From NCBI GenBank assembly GCA_021014945.1, contig MU266448.1:1-59383 (forward strand): DNA of 59,383 nt. The letters run 5' to 3'. This stretch comes from Leucogyrophana mollusca (lineage: Eukaryota > Basidiomycota > Agaricomycetes > Boletales). This document shows positions 35,275 through 47,423 of this stretch, piece by piece (the first letter of the stretch is position 1; the number at the start of each line of letters is the position of its first letter). Below the pieces are notes generated by a model. The model did not search any database. It saw nothing but the letters and a program-made list of their open reading frames with translations, and was not told the origin of the DNA. The position numbers and the translations under genes were made by a program.

Positions 35275-36306
35275 CTAGTCTGTGTCCATAGCTTCGCCTC
35301 CTACTGGAGTGACTTCTTCGCTAACAACCAGACTACGGATATTCTCGGTCTTCCACGCCGTCGTCCCCCGTCTGAAACCATACTTGCGTTCCTTCTCCAC
35401 CCGCTCATTCGGTTTCACAAAGTTCCGAAGCATCTCGGTGTGCGTGGCGGTGATGACGCATGCGTCAACATTGGAACCGGATCCGAGATCGTTGAAGATA
35501 CCAGCTGAGATGGCGGCTGTCACCAGTGCAAGCCCTTCTTCTCGCTATTGTGCGCAAGTCAGCTTTCGAATTGGTAGCATGGGTTCTTGATAATTTACGT
35601 TCATGTTTGGTTTCCAGCCAGTTTCAAAGACGGCCATTGCTGCGAGACTTCCAGAACCCATCGTAACATAAGGCAGTTTGTCTGTTGAGCCGTGTGGGGC
35701 GACGGTGAAAAGGTGAGGTCCCGTTGCATCGACTCCCCCGAGAACAAGCGCTGCCCCGATATGTCCTTGATGTCTACACATTTACCCCTACGATGAGTGC
35801 CAAAATCATACAAACACACGGTTGCCTACCGGAATAGATACTGCTTCAGCATCGTCATTGCAGTGACCACTCTTGGTTGGCGACCAGTTGACAGAGCGTG
35901 AAGCTCCATGTTAGAGGAGATCGACGCGGTGGTGAATTCGGTATCAGCTGCTGTACCTGCACCACAGCAGCGAATGGACTCTGTAATAAAGTGTATCTAC
36001 GAGAGACGTAAGATCATGGCGCATGCACATGAGATGATCGCGCACCTTTTCGCAGTTCTTGTCCGCGACAATTGGACCTTCCGTAGCACGCGTATCGGCA
36101 CCGAGTATTACACCATCCTTGTAGATGCAGCCTACGATGGTTGTACCAGTACTCGTAGCCTTGGGCAGTGGAATGCCCTTCTCCTGGAGGAACGAATTGC
36201 TGAGCCGGGAGTTAACATCAACTCCAACAGCAAGAACGAGGATCGCTCACCGCACTGCATTCGAGAAATCGAATCCTGGGCCATGGTAAGGGGATGCTGA
36301 GGGCAT
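35275..36306 (-). CDS. PUP1: 20S proteasome subunit beta2 (trypsin-like)
   Basis: Catalytic beta2 subunit of the 20S core, with trypsin-like activity. The start at 36306 ([20 protein letters not shown]) is confirmed by a conserved intron after the Val-Arg codons. A propeptide [11 protein letters not shown] precedes the mature N-terminus [20 protein letters not shown], with catalytic Thr1 retained. Later exons give [38 protein letters not shown] and [10 protein letters not shown]. The C-terminal arm ends GEAMDTD at 35275, like the long beta2 tail that wraps beta3. About six exons. It diverges from the BAR gene across 227 bp. Confidence 0.94.
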
Positions 36307-36533
36307 TGTTATAAGTTCAAACGAAAGCTACGACTGTATTACGATCACGGTGAAAGGGATACGCGTCGCAGCCACTGTCCCGCGCCAAGGACCCCGAACA
36401 CTGACTTCCATATCAGGCGTCTTATAGGCTATGTCACTCACTGCGGCCATCCTCAGCCTTTGACCTTGACCTTTACCCTTGTTGCTATTAGCTGTTACAT
36501 TTACCTTGTATCTATTAGCTTTCGCCCAACAAC
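36307..36533. promoter_or_regulatory. Divergent promoter between proteasome beta2 and BAR gene
   Basis: 227 bp between the two start codons. An ACGCGT hexamer (MluI cell-cycle-box core) lies at about 36361. No copy of the yeast proteasome element GGTGGCAAA was seen. Confidence 0.55.
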
Positions 36534-37786
36534 ATGGACGGCTGGAACAAACTCCAATCAAGCTTCTCCGGCCTCAACCTCGGCCAGTCTGCTAATAAGC
36601 TCGCAAAGGGCTTCAATTCCAGCGTCCAGGCAACCAGAGAGCGTCTCGGCCAGGTTGCTCCAGACGAAATCACTGAATTGCCCCAGGGTGTGTTCTTTCG
36701 TGTAGATATTTATGGTATTTCACTCATATCCTTGTCTCAGAGTACAAGGACCTCGAAGGCCGCGTCGACGCGTTGCGCCAAGCTCACCTTTCGTTGCTAA
36801 AGTAAGAGTTTTCACATTCGCCCCGTTGGGGTGCTAATTAGGTTGAAAGGATAACCAAAGCTTACGAAAACGAATCTTACGACTATCCTGTTCAAATTCA
36901 AGAGTCTATCTCGGAGCTCTCAACCACTATTGGCCAGGGTATCACCAACTTTGCAGCGACCAACCTGAAAGGCACAAACTTGCCCGCACCATCACCGGTT
37001 GCACCGTCTGCGGCTCAGCACAAGACTCTGCCCCATGCTCTCGGCAGAGCTGCTACCAATGCTGCCACTGCTATGCAAGGAACTGCAGGGGGGAGTGAGG
37101 ACAAGCTCGGCAAGGCACTGAGCCTCTACGCTGGAGTCTGGGACACCATTGCTGCCGCTCGCCTCCAGCAAGACGACTCTATCCAGAGACAGTATTTGCA
37201 ACCATGGCAGACAACCTTGTCAACCTCTATCAATGTGGCGATGAAAGCTCGCCAAGCCGTGCGCGTCAGTCGACTAGAGTTAGACGCTGCGAAACAATCG
37301 TAAGCACTGACCTAGGCGCTATATTTTTAGTCTGACGGTTTCGGACATCTAGTCTGAAGAGCGCTAATCCTGCACGGCAAGAGCAGGCACGGCTCGAGGT
37401 GGAGAATGCTGAGGACGATCTCGTGCAAAAGACAGAAGTGGCGATCACGCTCATGAAGACCGTACTTGAGAACGTATGTAATCCATATTTGGCAAATACT
37501 GGGTTTGCGACTAAATGTTCATGACAGCCTGAGCCCCTCAAGAACTTGAACGAGCTCGCGAAAGCTCAGGTGTGACCCGTTCTGGCATCCTCTGTTTCCA
37601 ACTGCTTACATATCATGTCTAGCTCCTATACTTTGCAGCTGCAGCTGAAGCACTTTCATCTGCACAAGGCGAGATTGAAGAGCTCAGTGTCGCTGCTGAG
37701 GGTGAATACAGGTAAAGACTACCGACAGGCCCGCACATGGATGATTGACCCATGCACTTCTTGCCAGAAAGTCCCGCGACCACTGA
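36534..37786 (+). CDS. BAR-domain membrane-curvature protein (first copy)
   Basis: Predicted cytosolic BAR-domain protein of the fungal Gvp36-like type, which dimerises and binds curved membranes in endocytic or Golgi traffic. Sequence from ATG 36534: MDGWNKLQSSFSGLNLGQSA, with an amphipathic N-terminal helix. Long coiled-coil helices follow (EYKDLEGRVDALRQAHLSLL; QESISELSTTIGQGITNF; SRLELDAAKQSLKSANPARQ; EQARLEVENAEDDLVQKTEV; LNELAKAQLLYFAAAAEALS). The terminal intron starts after GEYR (donor GTAAAG), and the last exon of six codons ends KSRDH at 37786. An ALDH gene follows on the same strand after 237 bp. A close relative of both genes, joined in one frame, lies at 42278. Confidence 0.88.
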
Positions 37787-38023: not shown

Positions 38024-40233
38024 ATGGCTCAACCGACATCTCAGACCACGATTAGCCCTCACGATCTGAGCGAGCTTGTGACTCGCCAATACCCAGACAA
38101 AGAATATCTAGATGGTGTCATCAACCGTGCTGCTGAGGCTCAGAAAGCGTGGCGCCGCGTTCCTCTCAAGGAGAGGATCGCGATTGGCGAGAAGTTTATG
38201 GCAAGTACACATGGATCTGATAATAGCGCAGATCGACGAGCTCCTTGCAGGCTGAGTTCAGCAAGCATGGCCACGAAATCCCCGAGGAACTCACCAAACA
38301 GATGGGCCGGTGGGTATCCCCGCCATAACCTCTGTCCCGAGCCTAGTTGACCATCTCCTACAGGCCTGTGAGTCAGGTCCCAGGAGAAGTACGCGGCTTC
38401 CTCTCGCGTGCAGCCTACATGCTATCGATTGCAGAATCGAGCTTATCGGATGTCTCTCTCAAAGACACGGATCTGCCAGGGTTCAGACGGTACATCAAGC
38501 GCGAACCCCTTGGCGTCGTATTCGTGATAGCTCCTTGGAAGTGAGTTCCCCAACATAAATGGTTGATCTGTGTATCAACTCCCCCCCAGCTTCCCCTACC
38601 TCGTTTCCATCAACTCCGTCCTTCCGGCGATCGTAGCCGGAAACGCCGTCCTCTTCAAGCCCTCTCCGCAAACGCCCCTCACAGCTGAGCGGTTCGCCCG
38701 TGCTCTTGTCTCTGCTGGTGTACCGAACGACCTCATTCAAGTCCTTCATCTGTCACCATTATTGACAGCACACGTCGTCCAGCACCCCTTAGTCGACTTT
38801 GTATCGTTCACTGGGAGCGTCGTGGGGGGTGAGACGATCGAGAAGCTTGCTGTCGAGGCCAAGGGGTTTAAAGGCGTTGCATTGGAGGTATGCATAGATT
38901 CATATTATATGAGTGTGTCGTTCTGCGTGCTGAGGCATCCACAGCTTGGTGGCAAGGATCCTGCATATGTCCGAGCAGATGCGGATCTCAAATACACGAT
39001 CGCTGAGCTCGTTGATGGCGAGTGCATCGTTCTTCCCTTTTGTTGCCACACCTCAACGCCGTGTTTGCAGGTGCAATGTTCAATTCTGGCCAGAGCTGCT
39101 GTGCCGTCGAGGTAAGCCCATAAGCCATTGATCCGCCCTTTTTGTATTCAGATAATTGATCCATCAGCGCATCTATGTACACGACTCCCTGTATGATGAA
39201 TTTGTCTCAGGATTCGTCGACCTTGTCAAAGTACGTCCTCAAGACCCTCATGACATCTGCATGGATGCTTACGGACCCCGAAAGCAATATAAACTCGGTG
39301 ATCCAACTCAGCCAGAGACGAACTTGGGCCCAGTGGTAAGTGTTGCAAGTGCACGGAGGATACGCAAACAAGTTGCGGATGCCGGTGTGCCCGATCTCTA
39401 CTTCTGCTGTGCGCACGGAGCTGATGATGATGTCATCGCAGTGAAAGCTGGCGCAAAGACACTGATACCGGAGGGCCTATTCCCTATCGCACAAGCGTAA
39501 GCATGCGCAGTGAATAGTACGGTTCCAATAATTATATCCTTCCAGCGATAATGCCTACGTCGCCCCTCAGGTGCTCGTGGACGTAGATCACTGTGAGCTT
39601 CTCTCTGCCCACTTCTTAACACGATACACTCTAACAAGCGCTCTTCTCGCAGCCATGGATGTCATGATGGTAAAGACTCCCACCCATCCAGCCAATTACT
39701 TAACCGAGCTTCCAACAGGAAGAAACTTTTGGACCTGTCATCGGCATCCAAAGGGTGTGGCTGTTGTTTCCTACACACGATGTACCTAGCTCACTCCTGT
39801 TCAACCTCTTATACATAGGTGTCGTCCGATGAGGAGGCCATCCGGCTAATGAACGACTCGCCTTACGGCCTCACCGCCTCCGTGTGGACTAACGCCGAGG
39901 CAAACCCAGAGTCTGAGAACGCTTTCCTGCGCATTACAGATGAGCTCCATACGGGGACTGTCTTCTTGAATAGGTGAGTCGCCCTTGACTTCCTCCTACC
40001 AAAGAAGGTAGCTTTCATACTGTGTCATCTTCACAGATGCGACTTCCTCGATCCTGCTCTTGCATGGACTGGTGTTAAAAACAGTGGCCGCGGTATCAGC
40101 TTAAGCAAGTTCGGTGCGTTATTTTGACTCTAGTGTCTCAGCTGTGTTGCAGGGTCTGTGCTGATGGGCCTGTCCAGGATATGACCAACTTACCAGGGCT
40201 AAGTCTATTCACATGAAAATCAAGACAACATAG
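38024..40233 (+). CDS. NAD(P)-dependent aldehyde dehydrogenase (active copy)
   Basis: Oxidises an aldehyde to the acid; the substrate is unknown. From ATG 38024 (MAQPTSQTTISPHDLSE), the joined exons give every ALDH hallmark: oxyanion-hole Asn in APWNFPYLVS, GNAVLFKPSPQTPLTAER, FTGSVVGGE, the general-base Glu in LELGGKDPAYV, catalytic Cys in NSGQSCCAVER (TGC at 39097-39099) and the cofactor-binding Glu in EETFGPVIG. About 14 exons. Two introns have GC donors (38201 and 39018) and are supported by alignment with the fused copy, which has GT there. The end is SIHMKIKTT at 40233. It directly follows the BAR gene on the same strand, and the fused paralogue downstream suggests that the pair works together. 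Confidence 0.9.
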
Positions 40234-40489: not shown

Positions 40490-41545
40490 ATGCCTGACAT
40501 CCAACTAATCGAGGTGGTCCTCGCTTCACAGGATGGTTTCTCTGCATTCGTCGACGTCTTATCTCCTCACGCGCCGTTCAGCCTCCACATTCTTGGTGGT
40601 ATACTGAACTCTCGTGAACGCACGGGGAAACTCGAAGTCTGTGATTCCCCCGGTGTAACCGCATGGACATCCAAGCCCTTGACCACCATTGATTCATCAT
40701 CAGATCTGTTCTCTGTGCTCATATTCTCCTCGCTCACTCACCAGTTCCACTTTTTCTGTTCCGCTGAATCCCTCACAGGGCCTCCAACGAAGGATGCAGA
40801 GGCTCACGTCCTGGGCACAATTAGAGCAGTCCTACGCCTCGCATACATACAGGCCCCCAGATACGATTCGGTGTTGAGGTTGGGCGGCGATACGGATGCC
40901 CCAACGGAGAGAATGGGGGATGAACCACCCATGATCATCATCGCAGCGGTACACGAGAAATGGACCTCATGTTTGCGTCCTCTTGCCGTGGCCCAATATG
41001 CATCTGTGCGATATGTACTCCCGCCTGGACACTCTAAAGACACATCCAATCTCTCCCATGAGTGGACCCTCTCCACTCTCCAGGAATCCGATATCGATGC
41101 TGTTCGCAGCACATCTCATATTCCTCGTCCCAAAGAATACTTCTTATCGAGGTCTGCGTACACGGTGTGCATCAGGAAGAAAGGCGAAGAGAGCGCTTCA
41201 CAGAAGCCTATCGCATGGGCGTTGATGCATGCGGACGGAAGCATCGGTGCATTGTACGTCAATGCCGAGTACCGAGGGAAGGGCCTCGCGCAGGTGGTGG
41301 TGAAGGAACTGACGAAGAAGTTGGATTTTACCGAAGGAGTGGGAGCGTCTTCGGTCGACGACGATATCGGAGGAGGGGCACTGGGATGGAATTGGACAGA
41401 TGTAGATTTACTGAACGAAAAGGCGATGGCGTTCTTCGATTCGGTTGGAAGTTGGGAACGGGGCTGGCTTTCCCATTGGACATACATGAACGTTGGATCC
41501 GATACTGGTCTACTCAACTCATTCGGGGACAGTCGTCAGTGCTAG
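40490..41545 (+). CDS. GNAT-family (FR47-like) N-acetyltransferase
   Basis: Intronless 351-residue protein. The C-terminal third has the GNAT fold: a strand (PIAWALMHADGSIGALYV) and then the acetyl-CoA-binding loop NAEYRGKGLAQVVVKELTKK (R/Q-x-x-G-x-G/A). It ends with a Trp-rich segment (ERGWLSHWTYMN) resembling FR47/glycine N-acyltransferase-like proteins. The N-terminal two thirds (VVLASQDGFSAFVDVLSPHA) match the N-terminal domain often found in such proteins. Substrate unknown. It sits between the two copies of the BAR/ALDH module and is a single gene there, so it either was inserted after the duplication or its second copy was lost. Confidence 0.8.
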   Translation: MPDIQLIEVVLASQDGFSAFVDVLSPHAPFSLHILGGILNSRERTGKLEVCDSPGVTAWTSKPLTTIDSSSDLFSVLIFSSLTHQFHFFCSAESLTGPPTKDAEAHVLGTIRAVLRLAYIQAPRYDSVLRLGGDTDAPTERMGDEPPMIIIAAVHEKWTSCLRPLAVAQYASVRYVLPPGHSKDTSNLSHEWTLSTLQESDIDAVRSTSHIPRPKEYFLSRSAYTVCIRKKGEESASQKPIAWALMHADGSIGALYVNAEYRGKGLAQVVVKELTKKLDFTEGVGASSVDDDIGGGALGWNWTDVDLLNEKAMAFFDSVGSWERGWLSHWTYMNVGSDTGLLNSFGDSRQC

Positions 41546-42277: not shown

Positions 42278-45200
42278 ATGGATAAGCTATCCAATCTCTC
42301 CGCGACCGGGAGTTGGCTGGCAGCTGGCGTAGGCTCTACAATACAGGCTGCTAGTGGGCGACTATGGCGTACTGTCCCGGAAAATACGACGGAACTCCCT
42401 CAGGGTGAGTAAAGTATGTCCTTTCGGTGTGACAGAAATCGAACTCAGGACTTGGTTTGCAGAGTACATAGACTTAGAAGCTCGTGTCGACATGCTATGT
42501 CAAGCTCACTCTTCAATGCTCAAATATGGATTTCGGAGGTGAGCCTGTAATGGAAACATAATAGACGTTTGCGCTCTGACGGAAGACTCAGCAGAACCAA
42601 AGCCTTTGAGAACGAACCATATGACTATTCCGCACAGGTCCGGGAGTCTGTGACTGGCGTTTCCGCGAGTATCAGCCAGGGAGTGATGAACATTACTGCC
42701 GCCGCTAACATCTTCCGTACAAACTCGCCTGCTACTTCATCCGCTGCTCCTCACCCCGTACAACCAAAGTCGTTACCACATGCTCTCAGCAGGGCAGCGA
42801 CAGCTGCAGCCACCGCTATGCAAGGTGCCGAGGGAGGAACAGAGGAACACCTGTGGAAAGCGCTGTCAGTATACGCTCAAGTATGGGGGAACATCGCTAC
42901 TGCCCGTCTTCAGCAAGATGCTTTTGTCCAGAAACAATCCACAGAGCCTTGGCAGAGTGCATTGTCGACTTCTATATCCCTGGCTATGAAAACCCGTGAA
43001 GCGGTGCACAACAGTCGAGTAAACCTGGATGTTGCCAAGAGCGCGTGAGATTTCCGTCAATTCCTCCCAGTCTCACTTAAATCCTCATTGTCTGGTTCCA
43101 GACTAAAGGTCGCTGATGCTGCAAAGCAGGAGCAAGCTCAGCTTGAAGTGACAAATGCCGAGGTTGAGTTTGCGCAGAGGATCAAAGAGGCCATTGCTGT
43201 TATGAATATCGTATTGGACAATGTATGTGTATTCGCTTCCAATGATCGGATTGAAGCTGATCACAGAAGCATAGCCTGAACCAATCAAAAGTCTGAATGA
43301 ACTTGCAAAAGTTCAAGTGCGTTCCCATACTTTATATGCCCTACAACCAGCCATTGACCCCCCGAATTACCTCCAGCGCCTCTACTTTGCCTCTGCTGCC
43401 GAATCACTTGCGTCTGTACAGATCAAATTAGAGGAAATATCCATATCTGCAGAGAAAGACTACAGGACGCTCCTCCTGTCTGATCCACGTTCCCAGGCAA
43501 CGATCAGTCCTCACAACCAGAGGCTACTTGTTTCGCGAAAATATCCTACCGAAGGCGACTTAGACCAGGTTATACAGCGTTCAGTCCAAGCTCAGAAAGA
43601 CTGGCGTCGTTTCCCCCTGCAAGACCGGATTGCGATCAGCGAGAAGTTACTGGTATGCCCGGTCTTCGTTCAAATGAAAGCCTCGCTGATACGTGACATT
43701 TTCAGGAGGAGTTGCACACATTGACTGACGAAATAACCATGGAACTCACACTGCAGAACGGTCGGTGAGTTGGCAGCTTGCGTCCACGTTTGTGTTGCTT
43801 ACCTGAAATGCTACGCAAAGTCCAATTAGCCAGGCCCCTGGCGAAATACGCAACTTCTTCTCAAGAGGGGAATACTTGCTATCAATTGCAGGGTCGGATT
43901 TAGCAGATAAGTCAGTGGAAGACAGCGAACAGCCAGGGTTCAGGCGGCTGACCAAGCGCGACCCTATTGGCGTGGTGTTTGTGGCATCGCCTTGGACGTG
44001 AGTCTCGTGACGGAAGGGCTGCGAACATTGTCACTGACCAGGGAAGTTGCCAGTTTCCCCTACCTGACATCCATCGACGCCATTATCCCTGCCATCGTAG
44101 CTGGAAACGCCGTTCTTCTCAAACCTTCCTCGCAGACGCCTCTCACCGCTGAACGCTTCGCCCAGGCACTGGCCCGGGCTGGTGCACCAAAGGACATCCT
44201 CCAGGTCGTCAACCTGACCCCTTCTCTGACAACACACGTCGCGCGGCATCCGCGTGTGGACTTTGTATCCTTCACGGGGAGCTCCGTGGAGGGCCAGGCC
44301 GAAGAAAGAGCGGCGTTGGACTTTGATGGCTTTAAGGGCATTGTGCACGAGGTAATACGGCCTCCTGCTCTCCAAGTTTGTAATTTTATCTCACTGGGCC
44401 GTTGTAAGCTTGATGGCAAAAACCCTGCATATGTTCGTGCGGATGCGGACATTCGCTACGCAGTTGCAGAACTCGTGGAGGGTAGGTGCCCTTGACGCTT
44501 GGTGTTAAATAGGATGTAACTGAAAGCTCATCGCAGCCTCGATGTCTAACTCTGGTCAACACAGCTCTTCCGTCGAGGTCAGCTCCACACTTCCTGGTCC
44601 CTTCCGCGCGGCCTCCTGACTTATCCATTCACATAGCGTATCTATGTTCATGAATCTGTATATGATACATTTGTTGCCCACTTTGTGGATCTTGTCAAGG
44701 TATGAATGCTAAAAACTTGACGCACTTCACTGTTAATGCCAATGCACCAACAGGCATACAAACTAGGCGATCCCACTGTCCCAGAAACGACTTTAGGGCC
44801 CGTGGTCAGCATCGCCAGTGCGCAGAAGATCCGAGACCAAGTCGCAGAAGCTGGTCAGTCCTAGCCACGTCAAGGGCACAGGCACTCACGCTGCTGCCAT
44901 TATAGTTCAAGCGGGTGCAAAAGCTCTTATCCCAGACGACCTCTTCCCGATTGCCAACGAGTAGGTTTGCGTGTTACTTTCCCCTTGTGCGCCTCATTCA
45001 GTTGATCTTAGGCACAACGCGTATGTCGTACCTCAGGTCTTGGTTGATGTGGATCACTGTGAGCCGTTTCTGGGCAAATCATTCTTGGAAATTGTTTTCT
45101 AACCACGATTCGTCCCTCAGCCATGGCTGTCATGAAGGTAGGAGAGCTAGACTACTTAGCTGGTGGAGCAGCGTCTAACCCTCGCGCAGGCAGTAACCTT

Positions 45201-45657
45201 TGGGCCCGTAGTCGGAATTCAAAAAGTATGCTCATCATTTTCGCCGTCGACGTTTGACTCAGATCACTGCTACTGATCCAGGTTGCATCTGACGACGAAG
45301 CCATCCGCTTGATGAACGACACTTGCTTCTCGTTCACAGCTTCCGTATGGACCAACACCGAAACCAATCCAGACTCCGAGAGCGCTTTCCGGCGCATCAC
45401 GAATGAAGCGAATACTGGAGCCGTCTTCCTCAACAGGTGAGTACGTATGTCACGTTGGGAAGCCTCTGCTCAAGTATCGTCGATAATCAGGTGTGACCGT
45501 CTCGATCCTTGGACGAATATAAGCGGCATGGGGCAGGGCACAGCGCAGGGTGAGTGCATCTTTCTCGTTGTTGTTGGAACATCTCCGCTCACGAATACCA
45601 TCGGTAATAGGATACGATCAATTTACAAGGACCACAAGTGTAAACATTAAAATATGA
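42278..45657 (+). CDS. BAR domain fused to a catalytically dead aldehyde dehydrogenase (pseudoenzyme)
   Basis: One open gene equivalent to the BAR gene at 36534 plus the ALDH gene at 38024. The BAR part (ATG 42278, MDKLSNLSATGSWLAAG; QVRESVTGVSASISQGVMN; AVMNIVLDNPEPIKSLNELA) runs to EISISAEKDYR and passes in frame through TLLLSDPRSQ into the ALDH part (ATISPHNQRLLVSRKYPTEG). The splice donor after DYR reads GA instead of GT, and the former ALDH start ATG aligns with CTG. The ALDH part keeps the overall fold but has lost key residues: Asn to Thr in PWTFPY, Cys to Ser in GQHSSSVE (AGC 44563-44565) and Glu to Val in AVTFGPVVG (45193-45195). The general-base Glu is retained in HELDGK. PYGL is replaced by CFSF. 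All introns keep splice consensus and no frameshift is seen. Roughly 800 residues, ending TSVNIKI. Confidence 0.85.
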
Positions 45658-46155
45658 TAATATATTCGGGAGACCCTTTTATACCACGTGCTTGTTCTTC
45701 TCCCTCTCCCCGGCTTGGTGCGAACGGGGGGGGGGGGGGGGGGGGGGGGGGGTCCATCATGAGCACTCCTGTGACTCCTACTCTTTACCCAGGCGTTGTC
45801 GTCGTTTCCGCCGACAAAAGGTTCAATCTGTGAGGTTAGATTTCCAGCATCGAGCCAAGATAACCTCAGGGCATCGACTTCCCATACACCCTTCGGAGAA
45901 TAGACTCCGCTATTGCTTGAATTTATGGGGCGATGGCCCTCAAGCTTATCGTGGGGAGATGCTTTTCTCACTACTTTCAGGTTCTTTTCGAGGGTTTACG
46001 CGTCTGGTAAGTCTTCGAGTCATGCGTATGGTCCCCAGCTGACGCGTCCCGTGTCAATCGAATCAACCATACACTATAAAGCAGCTTCGGGCTCGTGCAA
46101 GTGCTTTAGCTGATTCGAGCCATCCTCTCGAGTTCTTGATACCCAGCGGAAAACC
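45658..46155. other. Intergenic region between fusion gene and proteasome beta5
   Basis: About 500 bp. It contains a 27-nt G homopolymer at 45726-45752. No gene was recognised. Confidence 0.5.
45726..45752. repeat. Poly-G tract, 27 nt
   Basis: Uninterrupted run of G. It lies between convergently unrelated transcription units (3' of the fusion gene and 5' of proteasome beta5). It could form G-quadruplex structures and is prone to length change; the exact length in the assembly may be unreliable. Confidence 0.9.
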
Positions 46156-47423
46156 ATGAACGCCATTATCCAGCGATTTTCGACTTCAGCTGCAAGCCAT
46201 GAGCGTCCGGTAGGAAGGCTGGCACTTGCAGAAGACGACGATGACACGATCTCTGGGGCCATGTGGGGATCTGAAGCTGGCTTTGGGAGTCTCGCCAAAG
46301 GCGTGCCCTCCTTCGTCATTCCTTCTGTTGCGGATGTGAGTCGAGTCCCCCCTAGATTATTGAGTGCGTCAGACCTGTGTTTGACCTACGCGGACATGAC
46401 AGCCCGCTGCGTTCTTGAAGCTGCATACCGATGATACGGATCAAGCATCCAGGATCAAGATCCACCACGGAACGACAACGTTGGCGTTTAGGTACCAGGG
46501 TGGTGTGATCGTCGCCGTCGACTCGCGATCGTCTGCTGGGAGTTACATCGGTTCGTCAATGACACATGCCGCGAGTTGTTTTTTGCTGACACCCTGCACA
46601 GGCTCTGGAACTGTCAAAAAAGTCATCGAGATCAACCAGTATTTATTAGGTACGATGGCTGGTGGTGCAGGTTCGTCTGAATTGTTTATCCTCGGTGCTT
46701 GTTTTATTGATGACCTGCGCTCTAGCTGACTGCCAGTATTGGGAGACATACCTGGGGATGCATTGTCGTTTGCATGAGCTCCGAAACAGGGAACGGATCT
46801 CGGTCGCTGCGGCGAGCAAGTATCTGAGCAACCTCGTATATAGCTTCAAAGGCACTGGCCTGAGTATGGTAAAGCATGTTTAACCTGGGGACTTTCTTGG
46901 CGGCTGAACCTGGTTGTTTCTTCAGGGCACTATGCTTTGTGGATGGGATAAGACAGTCAGTAACCATCTCCGCCATCCACGTTCCGAGTAACGTACCATG
47001 ACATCATAGGGTCCCGCGGTGTACTACGTCGACTCAGACGGCACCCGATTGAAGGGAGATTTATTCTCTGTTGGATCGGGGAGCACATTCGCCTACGGCG
47101 TGCTCGATCAAGGGTATCGATGGGACCTCACCGACGCGGAGGCGCAGGAACTTGGGAGGAGGAGCATCTATGCCGCTGGGCATCGCGATGCATTCACGGG
47201 TAATAGCTGTAACCTGTACCACATGAAGGAGGACGGATGGAAGTTTATTGGTACGTCGAGTCCGATTCCGCGACGTGGTCACGTCAGCTGACTGTTACTC
47301 GTTTTCCAAGGGAACTATGATTTGTCGGAGCTGCACTACCAGGGTGTGGAGGGTAAGGGCTATGGGTATGAAATCCGAGTTGAGGGTCGAAGCTCGGCGA
47401 ATCCGCCTTCTGGGTCTGTTTGA
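46156..47423 (+). CDS. PRE2: 20S proteasome subunit beta5 (chymotrypsin-like)
   Basis: Catalytic beta5 subunit of the 20S core, with chymotrypsin-like activity. The ATG at 46156 ([18 protein letters not shown]) starts a long propeptide ([17 protein letters not shown]). The mature chain begins [20 protein letters not shown], with the catalytic Thr preceded by HG, and SAGSYI follows. Later exons give [75 protein letters not shown] and [17 protein letters not shown]. The frame ends [10 protein letters not shown] at 47423. About eight exons. The beta2 gene lies only 10 kb away. Confidence 0.95.

Follow-up and report, generated by a model that had tools for sequence, protein, structure and literature searches.

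An in-frame fusion of a BAR domain with an aldehyde dehydrogenase lacking catalytic residues in Leucogyrophana mollusca, with a counterpart in Hygrophoropsis aurantiaca

The window analysed here, a 59,383-nt stretch of DNA from the wood-decay fungus Leucogyrophana mollusca (Boletales), carries a gene in which a BAR domain runs in frame into an aldehyde dehydrogenase (ALDH) fold, downstream of a separate BAR gene (BAR1) and a separate ALDH gene (ALDH1). Protein comparison gives good support to the reading of its product as a BAR-derived arm that carries a dead ALDH. We favour, with moderate confidence, an account in which a copied gene pair became a fused gene, lost its ALDH activity and was retained as a tethered module that acts by assembly.

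The gene starts with an ATG at 42278, ends with a TGA at 45657 and keeps a single uninterrupted frame across 20 exons (Table 1), its 19 introns all being of the GT-AG type and 51–62 bases long. The spliced model is identical, letter for letter, to a deposited L. mollusca "ALDH-like protein" (P0001, 772 aa), and would be made from one mRNA. By Pfam, residues 36–286 belong to BAR_2 (PF10455; E 5.2e-39, profile positions 22–280 of 286, 134.6 bits versus a curated cut-off of 25.4), and the Aldedh match (E 1.5e-99, profile positions 7–440 of 461), likewise above the curated cut-off, places the second half in the ALDH superfamily (PF00171). The initial annotation had a full BAR domain pass into a full-length ALDH in one frame; the in-frame fusion stands, while "full-length" goes slightly too far, as about 20 C-terminal Aldedh profile positions are unmatched and nine residues of ALDH1 are missing near or at the C-terminus, as three gaps of three. 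An AlphaFold model of the fusion had a mean pLDDT of 71, with nearly all 10-residue blocks before residue 270 below 70, and is uninformative on dimers; weak pLDDT near the ALDH C-terminus is no sign of decay, because the model of the ALDH1 control shows the same. With the fusion model as query, all 50 rows shown by Foldseek and all 50 shown by VIA-align were ALDHs; the BAR half was barely probed by these searches.

Table 1. Positions, within the 59,383-nt window, of the fusion gene, its parts and its neighbours.
Feature	Position	Strand	Description
Proteasome subunit exon pieces (PF00227)	~35275-36460	-	1 piece, left flank of the BAR/ALDH block
BAR1	36534..37786	+	Parental-type BAR_2 gene; 7 exons, 311 aa; BAR_2 E 1.4e-52
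ALDH1	38024..40233	+	Parental-type ALDH gene; 15 exons, 476 aa; active site intact; identical to deposited P0008
GNAT-type acetyltransferase ORF	40490-41545	+	Intronless, 351 aa; FR47 (PF08445) and Acetyltransf_1; between the two BAR/ALDH copies
Fusion gene	42278..45657	+	Spliced model of 20 exons, 772 aa; BAR 1-302, linker TLLL 303-306, ALDH-like 307-772
BAR-derived half	42278..43465	+	Exons 1-5 and first part of exon 6; Pfam BAR_2
Junction exon	43377..43652	+	BAR end (SAEKDYR) runs directly into ALDH TLLLSDPRSQATISPHN, without a stop or an in-frame ATG
Junction-spanning peptide of the fusion			SAEKDYRTLLLSDPR
ALDH-derived half	43466..45657	+	Pfam Aldedh 310-753; catalytic residues lost
Proteasome subunit exon pieces (PF00227)	~46157-47291	+	2 pieces, right flank of the BAR/ALDH block

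At the junction, codons matching the end of the sixth BAR1 exon (EYR in BAR1, DYR in the fusion) are followed by TLLL and then by SDPRSQATISPHN, whose aligned counterpart is the N-terminal ALDH1 stretch AQPTSQTTISPHD. The sixth and last intron of BAR1, in phase 2, is absent from the fusion, and its position is the fusion point, after 43465. In copy one, 312 bases separate this intron boundary from the ALDH1 ATG; the corresponding distance in copy two is 10 bases.

BAR1 and ALDH1 are real genes, in the same order and on the same strand as the two halves, as the initial annotation had claimed for separate neighbours upstream, and ALDH1 ends 2 kb upstream of the fusion gene. The fused BAR half is 57.6% identical to BAR1 (171/297 aligned residues) and the fused ALDH half 63.5% identical to ALDH1 (296/466). 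The fusion has introns of the same position and phase for all 14 ALDH1 introns and, with alignment gaps counted, for four of the six BAR1 introns. BAR intron 2 of the fusion keeps the BAR1 phase, its donor lying five codons and its acceptor one codon further on, which preserves the frame and adds codons. Overall, 18 of the 19 introns sit at the ancestral position and phase and one is shifted nearby, and the single lost intron is that at the fusion point. The fusion thus arose when a block of two genes was copied and the spacer in the copy was lost; the same introns rule out a retrocopy. The proposed origin from the adjacent pair is thus borne out, introns and identity alike marking the fusion as a diverged second copy of BAR1 and ALDH1. 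In the 32.3-Mb assembly, a BAR exon had at least two matches, both inside the window, and an ALDH exon at least five, three of them outside the window and 33–37% identical.

A protein of Hygrophoropsis aurantiaca, P0005 (544 aa), has the same build. Its ALDH part is 70% identical to the fused ALDH half over 470 residues (70.9% between the two fusion ALDH halves, with derived states in common), and its N-terminus is a BAR remnant of about 72 residues in the protein model (54% identical over 76 residues), matching the fused BAR at 40 of 72 positions versus 35 of 72 for Hygrophoropsis BAR1. Its junction reads TALLSDPLSQATISP, both fusions sharing LLSDPxSQATISP, and it has undergone the same catalytic losses as in Leucogyrophana (N to T, CC to SS, E to V). 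An annotation artefact or sequencing error at the locus is ruled out by the open frame in the DNA together with this shared junction. Given the same junction and the same losses, both fusion and loss are most simply placed before the genera split, and on these protein comparisons the fusion probably predates Leucogyrophana and Hygrophoropsis. In a tree of 35 ALDH rows, picked for spread from the 120 matches listed, the two fusion halves grouped at 100/100. Moreover, at 215 columns conserved to at least 95% in the other 118 listed sequences, Leucogyrophana departs at 50, Hygrophoropsis at 64 and both at 41, with 27 identical derived states between them (two being gaps); four control ALDHs, each excluded from its own column count, depart at 1, 1, 3 and 0.

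In the same 35-row tree, the fusions did not join ALDH1 of the same two genera and, with midpoint rooting, fell outside all 33 other rows. In the BAR tree, the neighbour of the fused BAR was Hygrophoropsis BAR1 (91/52), within a group at 97/98, a position that carries a long-branch warning; P0002, P0004, P0136, P0138 and P0139 were left out of the BAR tree and columns, and the tree did not include the Hygrophoropsis remnant. A1 comprised 68 rows and A2 51. From both placements, the block copy may therefore be older than Leucogyrophana and Hygrophoropsis, with loss elsewhere. Hygrophoropsis also has BAR1 (P0126) and ALDH1 (P0006), with a longest contig figure of 40,522 bases for both, and in Gloeophyllum trabeum the BAR (P0131) and ALDH (P0028) proteins likewise share one figure (1,608,216), which suggests that the two genes may be linked in these fungi too. 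Among the 17 hits of the BAR search, none was an N-terminal BAR fragment under the Hygrophoropsis name, BAR1 being the only one so named.

The loss of the active site was assessed on the best 120 of 7638 ALDH matches among 7998 scored, setting the two fusions against the other 118. Residue roles were placed on the PWN, SCC and EETFGP-type motifs by ALDH2 numbering. The changes in the Leucogyrophana fusion are N443T, C576S, C577S and E676V, together with G544D. In the other listed matches, the Asn of PWN, both Cys of SCC and the first Gly of LGG are invariant (118/118 each) and the cofactor Glu of EETFGP is kept in 117 of 118; both fusions have T, S at both Cys positions, D and V, respectively. 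Loss of the Cys and Asn is confined to the two fusions among the 120 matches listed. The fusion thus no longer has the complete residue set of an active ALDH (Cys, Asn and Glu for catalysis, Lys and Glu for the cofactor), the roles of which are treated in passages of PMC8160307 and PMC10650815. With catalytic Cys, Asn and cofactor Glu gone in the 120-sequence comparison, the term pseudoenzyme used in the initial annotation is apt.

Its wording "membrane-bound" and "curved-membrane scaffold" fared less well. In the fused BAR half, 54 of 162 conserved BAR columns are changed, the C-terminal KSRDH of BAR1 is absent, and the putative amphipathic helix H0 looks weaker: by sequence calculation, N-terminal 18-residue windows starting at residues 1–13 have a hydrophobic moment (muH) of at most 0.22 and those starting at 14–16 of up to 0.41, versus 0.54 in BAR1. 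A window starting at residue 27 reaches 0.536 but contains two prolines. In addition, the Hygrophoropsis model retains only about 72 BAR residues. The scaffold reading is thus not well supported.

These features bear on the main competing explanation, namely that the gene is a slowly dying duplicate without a function of its own, still open in Leucogyrophana and with its BAR half perhaps partly gone in Hygrophoropsis. Both halves evolve fast, the fused BAR branch measuring 1.08 in the BAR tree versus 0.011 for BAR1, and the fused ALDH branch 0.15 versus 0.076 for ALDH1 in Leucogyrophana and 0.57 versus 0.097 in Hygrophoropsis. GC3 is 0.468 in the fused BAR half as compared with 0.582 in BAR1 (other parts, 0.568–0.582). 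The lost catalytic residues and the short Hygrophoropsis model on its long branch would be expected of such a duplicate, and the long fused-BAR branch, the low hydrophobic moment, the short Hygrophoropsis BAR and the long ALDH branch are compatible with decay or with relaxed constraint. The two copies differ with a pN/pS of 0.31 for ALDH and 0.34 for BAR, in a paralog comparison that mixes both lineages, and pS is near saturation (0.70 and 0.75, respectively). We simulated neutral drift along the Leucogyrophana branch in 300 runs, each continued until the ALDH half had gained 65 amino-acid changes, with substitutions and no indels. For the entire fusion gene, a mean of 4.8 stops accrued and only 3 of 300 runs had none, whereas none is observed in 772 codons; in a weaker test on the ALDH half alone, 25 of 300 runs were free of stops. 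At the same neutral rate, 5.3 hits would be expected in the 76 invariant splice-site bases and none is observed, an outcome with a chance of about 0.005. These results suggest that the gene was probably kept open by protection through at least most of the Leucogyrophana branch; recent death would still be compatible with them. As the fusion ALDH halves are, moreover, 70.9% identical with common derived states, we consider an idle, dying duplicate a possible but clearly less likely explanation than a retained module.

We regard it as improbable that the fusion exists on paper only, with separate transcripts or alternative splicing still yielding BAR-type and ALDH-type products. The fusion point carries an alternative in-frame acceptor (TACAG, ending at 43465) of the kind that such a scheme would use. 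In the Hygrophoropsis protein model, BAR exon 3 seems to be spliced onto the equivalent boundary, which would drop BAR exons 4–6. Yet neither spacer nor stop is left between the halves, and the deposited annotation also is one predicted protein. In addition, no in-frame Met codon occurs between fusion codons 252 and 376, so that an independent ALDH start near its usual N-terminus is impossible. Still more improbable is that the ALDH half retains some altered chemistry, for instance with Ser as the nucleophile, or binds NAD(P) without catalysing a reaction: although the fusion still has the Lys of KPS and the Phe of TFGP, and the Leucogyrophana copy also the catalytic Glu (Glu542) and FTGS, neither species retains the Asn, either Cys, the cofactor Glu or the first LGG Gly, and in Hygrophoropsis Glu542 is replaced by R and the FTGS Ser by N.

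In the account that we favour, that of a retained module, an adjacent pair of BAR (BAR_2 type) and ALDH genes was copied in tandem, and the second copy, as its sequence shows, lost the BAR stop, the spacer of about 300 bases and the ALDH start codon, giving one BAR-ALDH gene. Protein comparison places the loss of nucleophile Cys, oxyanion Asn and cofactor Glu most simply before the Leucogyrophana/Hygrophoropsis split, and simulation suggests that, along the Leucogyrophana branch or at least the greater part of it, the gene was then held open. The product, a non-catalytic ALDH module on a modified BAR arm, may, if it folds and assembles, use its ALDH oligomer surface to pair with ALDH1 or its BAR dimer surface to pair with BAR1, and such pairing might place or damp the active ALDH. 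Assembly is the weakest link of this chain; recruitment or regulation of active ALDH1 through subunit assembly is nevertheless plausible. Its most specific form, a dead ALDH on a BAR arm, peculiar to Leucogyrophana and Hygrophoropsis, that co-assembles with ALDH1 and anchors this partner to membranes of the Golgi or of vesicles, we consider doubtful. If such a pseudo-subunit did exist, a dead, fused copy arising in the gene neighbourhood of a metabolic enzyme would have given that enzyme a membrane address, an idea open to testing since the genes of both partners lie side by side. The locus is in any case a clean example of a new architecture made by tandem copying of two unrelated neighbours, spacer loss and a subsequent loss of catalysis; the intact single-gene copies next door serve as controls, and the second genus helps in dating the event.

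The architecture appears to be rare, in line with the initial annotation, which had proposed a check for BAR/Aldedh co-occurrence: among the matches listed, it was found in two genera only. In a search with the BAR half (residues 1–330), in which scoring covered the 7993 candidates with the most words in common, four matches were about 425–1351 aa long, and only P0001 carried Aldedh. P0005 was missed by this search, its BAR remnant being short, so that other eroded fusions may have been missed as well. Conversely, BAR domains were marked on one of the 120 ALDH matches listed (the best 120 of 7638 among 7998 scored), again P0001. Two other composite entries, P0002 (kinase and BAR) and P0094 (PF01105 and ALDH), appear to be database merges. 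No BAR-ALDH fusion was found in the titles or abstract starts of the open-licence papers listed.

BAR domains joined to enzymatic domains exist, e.g. in Fes/Fer kinases and BAR-RhoGAP/ArfGAP proteins, the BAR domain taking its partner to membranes. There, the partner is active or regulatory, whereas here it is a metabolic enzyme fold with its active site lost. Gvp36-type N-BAR proteins, which we take to belong to PF10455 (BAR_2), are similar in that both the N-terminal half of the fusion and BAR1 match BAR_2; the fusion differs by its joined ALDH, the low hydrophobic moment of its first windows and its 54 changed columns out of 162. A passage of PMC6997364 describes yeast Gvp36 as an N-BAR protein of the early Golgi, able to join Rvs167/Rvs161 complexes. 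The proteins nearest to the fused ALDH half among those listed are fungal ALDHs, the top matches being deposited as succinate semialdehyde or NAD-aldehyde dehydrogenases; ALDH1 has the catalytic residues, in contrast to the fused half, from which Cys, Asn and cofactor Glu are missing and which is joined to BAR. A functional parallel may be ALDH16A1, described in parts of PMC10650815 and PMC8160307 as an ALDH fold without the catalytic set that is thought to work via protein contacts. The fusion, too, is an ALDH fold lacking that set, although the Leucogyrophana protein keeps the catalytic Glu; unlike it, ALDH16A1 comes with no mention of a BAR domain in those parts, and the loss in the fusion would have occurred in fungi, within a different type of ALDH. 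ALDH pseudoenzymes and BAR domains with other partners are thus known, while the BAR-ALDH combination occurs, among the matches listed, in two genera only.

Several further observations concern the surroundings of the fusion gene. The deposited BAR1 model (P0125, 306 aa) ends five residues before the spliced 311-aa model and seems to read past the last donor site into an immediate TAA (37712–37767); the KSRDH terminus of P0126, P0002 and P0003 agrees with the spliced model, and P0128 ends differently. ALDH1 introns 1 and 5 (38201, 39018) have GC donors (GCAAGT, GCGAGT), and the matching fusion introns have GT. The proteasome pieces that flank the BAR/ALDH block look to us like beta-2 and beta-5. 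A run of 27 G lies at 45726–45752, shortly 3' of the fusion gene.
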